DNA from: Actinomycetes bacterium
Lineage (GTDB): Bacteria; Actinomycetota; Acidimicrobiia; Acidimicrobiales; RAAP-2
NCBI GenBank assembly: GCA_021795095.1
Contig: JAJYPU010000024.1
Span: 1-17,966, forward strand
DNA length: 17,966 bases
Reading direction: 5' to 3'
A program made the translations under genes and the position numbers. This document shows positions 12,729 to 15,502 of the stretch, piece by piece (position 1 is the first letter of the stretch; the number at the start of each line of letters is the position of its first letter). The notes under the pieces are model-generated. The model made no database searches. It saw only the letters and a program-made list of their open reading frames with translations, and was not told the origin of the DNA.

Positions 12729-13682
12729 ATGACCTCGCGCTACGGCATCACCATCCCCTTCGATGGCATCTCACTGGGCGAACATCGCGCCTGGTACTCG
12801 CGACTGGTCGAACTCGGCTACACCGACGTGTGGTCGGCCGAGGTCGACGGGACCGACGGGTTCACGCCGCTGGCGCTAGCCGCGGCGTGGGAGCCGCGAC
12901 TCAATCTCGGGCTCGCCGTGGCACCCGTCTTCACCCGCGGTCCGGGGCTGCTCGCGATGACCATCGCCGCCCTCGCCGAGGTGGCCGGGGAACGACTCAC
13001 CGTCGGGCTCGGCGCCTCGAGCCAACCGGTCGTTGAGCGCTGGAACGGGATCGCCTACGACCGGCCCTTCGCACGCACGCGCGACGTGCTGCGTTTCGTG
13101 AATCGGGCGCTCGACGGCGAGAAGATCGACGAGGACTTCCCCACCTTCAGCGTCCACGGCTTTAAGCTCTCGCGGCCCGTGACGGATCGGCCCCGCATCC
13201 TGCTCGGGGCGCTGCGCCCGGGCATGCTGCACCTAGCCGGCGCCGAGGCCGACGGGGCGATCCTCAACTGGCTGGCCGTCGAGGACGTCGCCACCTGCCG
13301 GGCCGAGGTGGGCCCCGACAAGGCCATCGCGGCTCGCTTGTTCGTCGTACCCACCGCCGACGCCGACCTCGCGCGAAGCGTCGGACGACGGATGATCTCC
13401 TCGTACCTCACGGTCAACGCCTACGCCGAGTTCCATCGTTGGCTCGGTCGCGGGGAGGCACTCACGCCGATGTGGGACGCCTGGGCCGCCGGTGACCGCA
13501 AGCTCGCCAACGCGGCGATTCCCGACGAGGTCGTCGACGCACTGATCGTCCACGGATCATTCGACGCCTGCCGCGATCACGTCCAGCGCTACGTCGAGGC
13601 CGGCGTCTCGATGCCGACGATCGCGATTGTGCCCGTGGGCGTCACCCTCGAGGAGGCCATCGTCGGCCTCGCGCCGCGCTGA
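12729..13682 (+). CDS. LLM-class F420-dependent oxidoreductase (317 aa)
   Basis: The sequence follows the luciferase-like monooxygenase TIM barrel. It opens with YGITIPFDG, has the second-strand GYTDVWSAEVDGTDGFTPLALAAA, the LAVAPVFTRGPGLLAMTIAAL segment, and RLTVGLGASSQPVVERWNG (89-107), where the cofactor phosphate is usually held. In actinobacteria such proteins usually use F420 (family knowledge), though FMN cannot be excluded. The substrate is unknown. No Shine-Dalgarno precedes the ATG at 12729. A weak -10-like CACACT ends 5 nt upstream, so the mRNA may be leaderless. It lies 21 bp after ppk2 and 32 bp before the riboflavin synthase gene, so a link to flavin or deazaflavin metabolism is possible. 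Confidence 0.85.
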   Translation: MTSRYGITIPFDGISLGEHRAWYSRLVELGYTDVWSAEVDGTDGFTPLALAAAWEPRLNLGLAVAPVFTRGPGLLAMTIAALAEVAGERLTVGLGASSQPVVERWNGIAYDRPFARTRDVLRFVNRALDGEKIDEDFPTFSVHGFKLSRPVTDRPRILLGALRPGMLHLAGAEADGAILNWLAVEDVATCRAEVGPDKAIAARLFVVPTADADLARSVGRRMISSYLTVNAYAEFHRWLGRGEALTPMWDAWAAGDRKLANAAIPDEVVDALIVHGSFDACRDHVQRYVEAGVSMPTIAIVPVGVTLEEAIVGLAPR

Positions 13683-13692
13683 GCGACATCCC

Positions 13693-13698
13693 TACACT
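13693..13698 (+). promoter_or_regulatory. Possible -10 hexamer before the riboflavin synthase gene
   Basis: TACACT sits 16 nt before the ATG at 13715, leaving a short leader that contains the Shine-Dalgarno GGAGG (13705-13709). No good -35 is visible. Confidence 0.35.
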
Positions 13699-13714
13699 GG
13701 CACTGGAGGTTGCG

Positions 13715-14224
13715 ATGGGTAAGAAGAAGACCAAGCACGAGGTCCCGGTGCGTATCGGCGTGGTGGACACGATGTTCGCCCGCTATGACATGGGTGGCGC
13801 GGCGCGCGCCGAGTTGGCGGACTGTCCGGGATACGGGAGTCGTTTCACCGTGGTCTCCAAGACAGTCCCCGGTTTCAAGGACCTCGCGGTAGCGGCAAAG
13901 AACCTCATCGAGCGCGACGGCTGTTCGATCGTGGTCGCCCTCGGCATGCCGGGCAAGGCACCCATCGACAAGCAGTGCGCCCACGAGGCGGCCCTCGGCA
14001 TCATGCAAGCCCAACTCCTCACCTCGACACCCATCCTCGAGGTCTTCGTCCACGAGGACGAGGCCGACGACCCCGAAGTCCTAGCGTCGGTGTTCAAGAA
14101 CCGCTCGGCCAAGCACGCGCGTAACGCGTACTGGATGCTGTTCGAACCCGAGCAGCTCGCCCGCCGGGCTGGTCAGGGCGTGCGTCAGGGCTTCGAGGAC
14201 GCGGGGCCGCTCGGCGTCGCCTGA
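13715..14224 (+). CDS. ribC: Riboflavin synthase, archaeal (RibC, lumazine-synthase-fold) type (169 aa)
   Basis: The enzyme dismutates two 6,7-dimethyl-8-ribityllumazine into riboflavin and a pyrimidine, the last step of vitamin B2 synthesis. The sequence carries the full set of landmarks I associate with archaeal riboflavin synthases such as Methanocaldococcus MJ1184: VDTMFARYDMG (17-27), KTVPGFKDL (49-57), VALGMPGKAPIDKQCAHEA (74-92), EVFVHEDEADD (109-119) and RQGFEDAGP (157-165). These proteins are related to lumazine synthase and unrelated to the two-domain bacterial RibE. The length fits the family, with a short basic N-terminal addition (MGKKKTKHEV). The start has GGAGG 5 nt upstream. 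It stands alone, with no other rib gene in the window. The match is from memory, but the motif agreement is extensive. Confidence 0.88.
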   Translation: MGKKKTKHEVPVRIGVVDTMFARYDMGGAARAELADCPGYGSRFTVVSKTVPGFKDLAVAAKNLIERDGCSIVVALGMPGKAPIDKQCAHEAALGIMQAQLLTSTPILEVFVHEDEADDPEVLASVFKNRSAKHARNAYWMLFEPEQLARRAGQGVRQGFEDAGPLGVA

Positions 14225-14293: not shown

Positions 14294-15502
14294 ATGCCCG
14301 AAGCCGTCATCGTCGCCACCGGTCGTTCGCCCATCGGTCGAGCGTTCAAGGGGTCGCTGGTCGACGTACGCCCCGACGACCTCGCCGCCCACGTCGTCGC
14401 CGAGGTCCTGGCCAAGGTGCCCCAGTTGGACCCGACGACCATCGACGACCTGATGATGGGCTGTGGCCAGCCGGCCGGCGAGTCAGGATTCAACATCGCG
14501 CGCGTCGTCGCCATTCTCGCCGGACTCGACACGGTGCCCGGCGTCACCGTCAACCGCTACTGCTCGTCGTCGCTCCAGACGATTCGCATGGCCGCGCACG
14601 CGATCAAGGCCGGCGAGGGCGACGTCTTTATCGCCGCTGGCGTCGAGACCGTGTCGCGCTTCGGCAACGGGGCCTCGGACATCGCCAAGGCGATGAACCC
14701 GCGCTTCGACGAGGCCATCGCGCGCACGACGGCTCGTTCGGCGCGCGCCGGTGACCCGTGGACCCCGAGTCCCGGGCTCCCCGACGTCTACATCGCGATG
14801 GGCCAGACCGCCGAGAACGTCGCCGAGTTCGAGCAGGTGTCGCGCGCCGAGATGGACGCGTTCGCCCTGCGCAGCCAAGAGCTCGCCGTCGCGAGCCAGC
14901 ACAACGGCTTCTTCGAGCGCGAGATCGTCCCCATCACACTCCCCGACGGGCGCGTGATCGCGACCGATGACGGCCCTCGGGCCGGCACCACGCTCGAGAA
15001 GCTGGCCGCCTTGGCCCCGGTCTTTCGCGAGGGCGGCACCGTCACCGCGGGCAACGCCTGCCCGCTCAACGACGGCGCCGCGGCCGTGATCGTCATGAGC
15101 GACACCCGCGCCAAGGCGCTCGGGTTGACGCCCCTGGCGCGGATCGTCTCGAGTGGGGTCAGCGCTCTCAACCCCGAGATCATGGGCCTCGGTCCCGTTG
15201 AAGCGAGCCGTCAGGCGTTGGCCCGCGCCGGGCTGAGTATGGACGACATCGACCTGGTCGAGATCAACGAAGCCTTCGCGGCTCAGGTGATCCCCTCGGC
15301 CAAGCACCTCGGCATCAACTGGGACAAGCTCAACGTGAATGGCGGGGCCATCGCGCTCGGCCACCCCTTCGGCATGACCGGGGCGCGCATCATGACCACC
15401 TTGCTCAACGGCCTCGAAGACCGGGACAAGCGCTACGGACTGGAGACGATGTGCGTCGGCGGCGGCCAGGGCATGGCCATGATCGTCGAGCGGCTCAGCT
15501 GA
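14294..15502 (+). CDS. Thiolase, acetyl-CoA C-acyltransferase family (402 aa)
   Basis: Thiolases cleave 3-ketoacyl-CoA, or condense two acyl-CoAs, in fatty acid breakdown or acetoacetyl-CoA synthesis. The nucleophilic cysteine is C90 in NRYCSSSLQT. NEAFA lies at 325-329, the catalytic His is H357 in GGAIALGHPFGMTGAR, and the second cysteine is C387 in CVGGGQGMAM. All key residues are present and the length is normal. Chain-length preference cannot be read from the sequence. The ATG at 14294 has GAGGAGGA just upstream. Its 3' end overlaps the convergent Trm112-like gene by 8 nt. No partner beta-oxidation gene is present here. Confidence 0.92.
   Translation: MPEAVIVATGRSPIGRAFKGSLVDVRPDDLAAHVVAEVLAKVPQLDPTTIDDLMMGCGQPAGESGFNIARVVAILAGLDTVPGVTVNRYCSSSLQTIRMAAHAIKAGEGDVFIAAGVETVSRFGNGASDIAKAMNPRFDEAIARTTARSARAGDPWTPSPGLPDVYIAMGQTAENVAEFEQVSRAEMDAFALRSQELAVASQHNGFFEREIVPITLPDGRVIATDDGPRAGTTLEKLAALAPVFREGGTVTAGNACPLNDGAAAVIVMSDTRAKALGLTPLARIVSSGVSALNPEIMGLGPVEASRQALARAGLSMDDIDLVEINEAFAAQVIPSAKHLGINWDKLNVNGGAIALGHPFGMTGARIMTTLLNGLEDRDKRYGLETMCVGGGQGMAMIVERLS

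Follow-up and report, generated by a model that had tools for sequence, protein, structure and literature searches.

An archaeal-type riboflavin synthase in an actinobacterial lineage whose rib operon lacks ribE

Organisation of the ribC locus

We analysed a stretch of 17,966 nucleotides from an Actinomycetes bacterium (contig JAJYPU010000024.1), referred to throughout as the window, in which an intact open reading frame on the forward strand (13715-14224) runs from an ATG start through 169 amino acids to a stop codon. The features of the gene and its immediate surroundings are as follows.

12729..13682, forward strand: LLM class F420-dependent oxidoreductase (TIGR03841, 292.3 bits against a cut-off of 213.65)
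13693..13698, forward strand: -10-like element TACACT, probable ribC promoter, the sole TACACT in the window on either strand
13705..13709, forward strand: Shine-Dalgarno sequence GGAGG, 5 bases 5' of the ribC start codon
13715..14224, forward strand: ribC, archaeal-type (pentameric) riboflavin synthase, 169 amino acids (TIGR01506; 2b98/2b99 by sequence and fold; model pLDDT 90.9)
13826..13834, forward strand: three-residue insert Pro-Gly-Tyr, codons 38-40 (from alignment with 248 relatives, G078, Streptomyces and 120 archaeal-type rows)
14294..15502, forward strand: acetyl-CoA C-acetyltransferase (thiolase; NF005890, 701 bits)

The first-pass annotation had placed ribC directly after an F420-type oxidoreductase, which is true of the window, where 32 bases separate the oxidoreductase stop from the ribC start, but is a local feature: among 130 loci (not dereplicated) only 26 have an oxidoreductase no more than 300 bases upstream of ribC. 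With proximity this infrequent a functional tie between ribC and the F420 oxidoreductase is not supported. A thiolase within 300 bases downstream is the commoner neighbour (75 of 130 loci, again not dereplicated, 108 of which had more than 1500 bases downstream of ribC for the count), yet it is confined to part of the family.

The promoter-like element and Shine-Dalgarno sequence that had been ascribed to ribC are both present as listed above. Of 108 related upstream regions (loci L001-L080 and L130-L169 without L152, after removal of repeats and short stretches) 51 have TACACT in the 140 bases that precede codon 14, compared with a mean of 0.7 and a highest value of 4 in 100 shuffles, and the looser TAnnnT occurs in 92 against a shuffled mean of 32 and a highest value of 42; the 140-base stretch takes in the first ribC codons and the shuffle statistics ignore kinship. 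These counts support, short of proof, a putative conserved -10 element upstream of ribC. Deeper members such as L130 show TAGGAT a few bases 5' of the ATG, which we read as the arrangement of a leaderless transcript.

Base composition does not set the gene apart from its surroundings, with a GC content of 0.659 and a GC3 of 0.853 for ribC and ranges of 0.661-0.699 and 0.838-0.911 respectively for the eight neighbours measured. No Rfam family, and hence no riboflavin riboswitch, reached its gathering score anywhere in the window, and a scan of six window neighbours gave no match to any family for the biosynthesis of flavin analogues.

The ORF encodes a member of the RibC family

The translated gene matches TIGR01506, the equivalog model of the archaeal riboflavin synthase, over model positions 2-151 of 151 with 175 bits (E 8.8e-52), some 74 bits above the cut-off of 100.55, and among solved structures it matches by sequence the M. 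jannaschii riboflavin synthase 2b98 (179 bits, E 7.2e-52). In a Pfam scan with E values up to 0.1 PF00885 was the only match, and the Lum_binding domains of bacterial RibE (PF00677) were absent at that threshold. An AlphaFold2 model built from 53 sequences reached a mean pLDDT of 90.9 and, when compared with solved structures using Foldseek, gave as its first match 4y7k, a fusion chain containing a riboflavin synthase, followed at ranks 2-4 by the archaeal pentameric riboflavin synthases 2b99 and 2b98, with TM scores of 0.94-0.95 by target length and 54-56% identity (for 2b99_A, TM 0.83/0.95, rmsd 1.2 and 54% identity). Among the matches listed, lumazine synthases came lower with TM scores of at most 0.77 and identities of 14-26%.

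The window protein also retains every position flagged as nearly invariant (more than 97% identical) in both a set of 248 close relatives and a set of 120 archaeal-type rows, including D18, T19, T50-G53, K55, D56, M78-G80, D85, C88-A92, E109-H113, E116, R130, H134, N137 and R157. All six sequence motifs on which the original call of an archaeal RibC-type gene had been based are found in the translation, and that call is borne out by the TIGR01506 score and by a fold nearest to the M. jannaschii enzyme. A best match to lumazine synthase had been named as the outcome that would count against it; the best family match is RibC. We considered a lumazine synthase identity and rejected it, the protein scoring 28.3 bits against the lumazine synthase model TIGR00114, below the cut-off of 84.6, and its fold being closer to 2b98 and 2b99. 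As judged from these matches the gene specifies a member of the pentameric, lumazine-synthase-like riboflavin synthases of archaeal type, with the corresponding predicted activity, and ribC in itself is a new member of a known family. Public annotation calls some such proteins riboflavin synthase of Acidimicrobiales.

Distribution of RibC among related genomes

The genome counts given here come from relatives of the window, with the genome of the window itself outside them. The nearest locus (L001, in genome G001) has 90.9% DNA identity to the window over 10.3 kb, and a scan of genome contigs found 347 relatives, of which 80 were kept as ribC loci. Going by their titles 74 of the kept loci are actinobacterial (Acidimicrobi-, Actinomycet- and Actinobacteri- names), five belong to Acidobacteria and one to Saccharibacteria, and the assignment of the surveyed relatives to the class Acidimicrobiia likewise derives from record titles. 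For 79 of the 80 the title denotes a metagenome-assembled genome (MAG), in which the absence of a gene can reflect incompleteness. The six loci titled as Acidobacteria or Saccharibacteria (L011, L024, L050, L053, L073 and L060) carry the same gene under titles that may be wrong, and one of them, L024 (genome G013), falls within the family group of G001.

RibC, scored as TIGR01506 over its cut-off, is present in 132 of the 150 genomes of the G001 family group, leaving 18 without it, and the idea of a single-genome curiosity or of contamination was rejected on this survey. Beyond the family the gene becomes scarce, being found in 12 of 148 genomes of a class sample and in 9 of 396 of a phylum sample, all nine of which are also in the class sample. 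The annotation had reasoned that presence throughout Actinobacteria would speak against its reading; the type is rare across the phylum sample, the survey covering Actinomycetota. A second occurrence centres on genome G078, whose family consists of two genomes, both with RibC, and whose order, which also includes G067 of the G001 family sample, has RibC in 9 of 59 genomes. In a search of plasmids the sole RibC record was that of Streptomyces camelliae, at 61% identity. Genome G259 carries RibC twice, each copy a full-length match above cut-off, on contigs 96 and 98 (L164 and L165).

RibE is nearly always missing where RibC is present

The annotation had proposed a check for a bacterial-type ribE, which we carried out on the related genomes. 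RibE (PF00677 over cut-off) was found in 1 of the 150 genomes of the G001 family group and in none of 20 genomes sampled from those of the 80 ribC loci, compared with 118 of 148 genomes of the class sample and 39 of 59 of the order sample. No genome among the 148 of the class or the 59 of the order had both RibC and RibE over cut-off, and the chance of such zero overlap is 5.9e-10 and 1.3e-5 respectively in a calculation that ignores kinship. Neither enzyme was over cut-off in 18 of the 148 class genomes, and the PF00677 match of G125, at 22.4 bits, stays below the cut-off of 27.

The sole family genome with both enzymes is G212, where RibE lies on another contig than RibC as an open reading frame of 451 residues (L152:3817-5172, contig 65) in which RibE is joined to a RibB-like domain. 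The fusion scores over cut-off for NF006767, just under for TIGR00187, and under the cut-offs of the RibB models; it could represent contamination or a gene with a specialised role.

Lumazine synthase (RibH) is over cut-off in 140 of the 150 family genomes and falls short in only 4 of the 132 that have RibC (G192, G205, G216 and G281). RibD_C was found in all 60 genomes searched (46 with RibC, 14 with RibE) and DHBP synthase in all 30 (18 with RibC, 12 with RibE), so that the remainder of the bacterial riboflavin pathway is in place.

The ribE slot of the rib operon is empty

We compared rib operons of genomes with RibE and genomes with RibC in two sets of loci, the second of which (ribBA loci) overlaps the first in part of its genomes. 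In the first set the order was ribD-ribE-ribBA in 8/8 loci with RibE, with ribH visible behind in 7, and ribD-ribBA-ribH in 8/8 loci with RibC. In the second set RibE lies upstream of ribBA at a distance of up to 413 bases in all 20 control loci, which were chosen as having RibE, and in the 17 of these with ribD in view the gap between ribD and ribBA is 586-745 bases. Where RibC is present ribD is in view in 17 of 18 loci, each of the 17 having a ribD-ribBA gap of 2-235 bases; ribBA of G078 is near a contig end. The gap is 235 bases in G200 and 95 bases in G207.

The distance from ribD_C to ribH in genomes with RibC is 1327-1638 bases with a median of 1330 (44 of 46 genomes, G002 and G078 being left out as no same-contig ribH place was at hand), and this leaves space for ribBA only. 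The empty ribE slot is the strongest evidence that we are dealing with a true replacement and not with an added gene.

Relationships and origin of the actinobacterial RibC

Trees of 79 and 71 RibC proteins, with 31 and 20 actinobacterial rows respectively (the family, G078, Streptomyces and the window), both separate the actinobacterial from the archaeal-type rows by a branch with 100/100 support, the trees being unrooted. Streptomyces and G078 form long branches whose pairing is unsure, and the archaeal part is a polytomy with most archaeal groups outside the sample. We collected the archaeal-type rows in two ways, by resemblance to the M. jannaschii enzyme and with a mixed profile, keeping the best 120 per search, and the 26 of the 120 M. 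jannaschii-gathered rows that name an organism are all archaeal (Methanococcales, Hydrothermarchaeota, Thermoplasmata and similar).

The actinobacterial proteins share the insert at codons 38-40. Its central Gly is present, to two decimals, in every one of the 248 close relatives (an overlapping set of 128 loci and 120 protein clusters) as well as in G078 and Streptomyces, and 120/120 rows gathered with the M. jannaschii enzyme have gaps in all three columns. The common insert indicates that actinobacterial RibC most likely derives from one acquisition or has spread among actinobacteria. The G078 protein deviates at positions 79 and 100, both of them nearly invariant in the rest of the family. 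Many close relatives also have a Lys-rich N-terminal extension (13715-13750 in the window) that the archaeal-type rows do not have, with Lys at position 4 in 75% of the 248.

Thermoplasmata and Methanomassiliicoccales are among the nearest archaeal rows, under names given by the source and within a one-sided sample. In one alignment the seven named Thermoplasmata/Thermoplasmatota rows have 54-60% identity to the window protein, and the top identity, up to 63.6%, is to an unnamed row that clusters with a named row of the same group. An archaeal source of the actinobacterial RibC is likely.

The history of the operon was followed in a tree of 38 RibBA rows, for which we selected genomes of the order and family samples and added eight loci of the class. 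RibC and RibE labels on this tree require at least two changes, with five RibE genomes inside a 23-row set (82/87) that contains all 18 rows with RibC, so that RibE may have been displaced more than once within the order, or may have returned.

Of 14 control genomes six match TIGR01506, three of those over cut-off. The archaeon Haloferax volcanii, also a control, matches the RibE domain and does not belong to the six RibC-matching controls, which hints at a reverse exchange in an archaeon.

Discussion

Our analysis supports the view that an archaeal-type enzyme displaced RibE and became fixed in this actinobacterial lineage. Displacement is directly supported by the mutual exclusion of RibC and RibE taken together with the empty ribE slot, and it appears old because RibC is common to most of the family group and has GC and GC3 values near those of its neighbours. 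The annotation had left a choice between lateral transfer from archaea and an old displacement; the displacement stands on the exclusion and the empty slot, while for the transfer an archaeal source is likely, judged on a tree with an archaeal polytomy and a one-sided sample. What the protein does, its descent from archaea, the sequence of events and the likeness of the window genome to its relatives are inferred.

RibC is very probably the sole riboflavin synthase of the lineage, replacing a RibE lost from the operon in an old event inherited by most of the family. RibE would have been lost from between ribD and ribBA and its function taken over by a ribC placed elsewhere in the genome. By homology RibC would act as a pentamer of lumazine-synthase fold that converts two molecules of 6,7-dimethyl-8-ribityllumazine, supplied by a separate RibH, by dismutation into riboflavin and a pyrimidine precursor, itself the substrate of RibH, in the last step of vitamin B2 synthesis. 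We lean, with less assurance, towards a wider reading in which RibC permanently took over this essential last step lineage-wide with ribE gone, the two-genome family of G078 went the same way, and the labels on the RibBA tree record repeated captures or a return of RibE. If so, two unrelated essential enzymes would have been exchanged back and forth between related bacteria.

Other explanations have to be weighed against this one, and the least probable, to which we give practically no credence, is that ribC is a contamination or binning artefact of metagenome bins. Nearly all kept loci are titled as MAGs and six of the 80 name other phyla, against which stand the 132 of 150 family genomes that carry the gene, the recurrence of the same neighbours on ribC contigs, a composition close to that of those neighbours and the placement of the oddly titled L024 (G013) in the family group. 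It is extremely unlikely that the window protein is a lumazine synthase, or a RibH-derived paralogue merely resembling RibC: the Pfam fold family PF00885 is common to both and TIGR00114 does reach 28.3 bits, but this is far under 84.6 whereas TIGR01506 is exceeded by about 74 bits, the TM scores are 0.94-0.95 to 2b98/2b99 against 0.77 or less for the lumazine synthases among the matches listed, and a RibH above cut-off is present in 140/150 family genomes.

Two further alternatives concern the role and the source of the gene. RibC could be a second, specialised synthase that boosts flavin supply for a secondary pathway in the manner of RibE2, the housekeeping enzyme having gone unrecognised, and the RibC of Streptomyces camelliae, 61% identical and encoded within a rosB cluster, together with the description of RibE2 in excerpts of PMC11039241 as an additional, archaeal-like synthase, would fit such a role. 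We hold this to be very unlikely given that RibE exceeds its cut-off in a single family genome of 150, that RibC is present in most of the family and is not sporadic, and that the six window neighbours scanned match no flavin-analogue biosynthesis family. Unlikely too, if less so, is a source of RibC outside the archaea, either as an ancient bacterial gene that this lineage retained and others lost or as one that moved from these bacteria to archaea. The actinobacterial proteins do form one group opposite the archaeal-type rows (100/100) in a tree that is unrooted. However, RibE is the common state of the class (118/148) and sits within the rib operon in 20 control loci, RibC is rare in the phylum sample (9/396), and of the four archaea in the 14-genome control set three match TIGR01506; with RibE common and RibC rare, a gain of RibC is the simpler reading.

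Riboflavin synthase acts at the end of a pathway that is discussed as an antibacterial target (excerpts of PMC10366380). A lineage relying on the unrelated archaeal enzyme would show that the enzyme of even such a core step can be exchanged across domains and the exchange become fixed, its footprint, an operon one gene short, still being readable. As relatives with and without the empty slot exist side by side, the order and number of exchanges are testable. Annotation that looks for RibE only would wrongly record such bacteria as incapable of completing riboflavin synthesis. There is precedent for archaeal-type RibC in actinobacteria; what we did not find in the open-licence literature is RibC as the only synthase of a bacterium, or a lineage-wide displacement with an empty operon slot.

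Comparison with known riboflavin synthases

RibE and RibC catalyse the same reaction, and the two types of riboflavin synthase proceed via different diastereomers of the pentacyclic intermediate. Bacterial RibE, with its two Lum_binding domains (PF00677), belongs to another Pfam family than the window protein. RibH (TIGR00114, PF00885) is homologous to it in fold and differs in being a separate gene, located within the rib operon in the loci read, with the window protein scoring far under the RibH cut-off. Archaeal riboflavin synthases are described as homopentamers whose sequence is completely different from that of the trimeric enzyme (excerpts of PMC10366380) and as paralogues of lumazine synthase (excerpts of PMC7369331).

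The M. jannaschii RibC (2b98, 2b99) is a full-length homologue of the window protein with 54% identity and the shared nearly invariant positions kept, and the window protein differs from it in its bacterial host, the insert at 38-40 and the Lys-rich N-terminal extension. The RibC of Streptomyces camelliae is archaeal-type and actinobacterial, is 61% identical, has the same insert and falls in the same tree group. Its gene lies on plasmid NZ_CP115301.1 (95606-120097, locus L170) together with ribA and genes for gamma-glutamyltransferase, ribX, a substrate-binding protein and rosB, a neighbourhood that is a roseoflavin rosB-type cluster, whereas the ribC of the window lies beside an oxidoreductase and a thiolase. 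RibE2 is, in excerpts of PMC11039241, an additional archaeal-type synthase from the roseoflavin cluster of Streptomyces davaonensis and of isolate 14.2 (S. berlinensis), and horizontal transfer is suggested there for the RibE2 of roseoflavin-producing Streptomyces. The archaeal-type enzyme of these Streptomyces is, by the same excerpts, an extra synthase belonging to an antibiotic cluster, whereas in most genomes of the family examined here RibC is the sole recognised riboflavin synthase.
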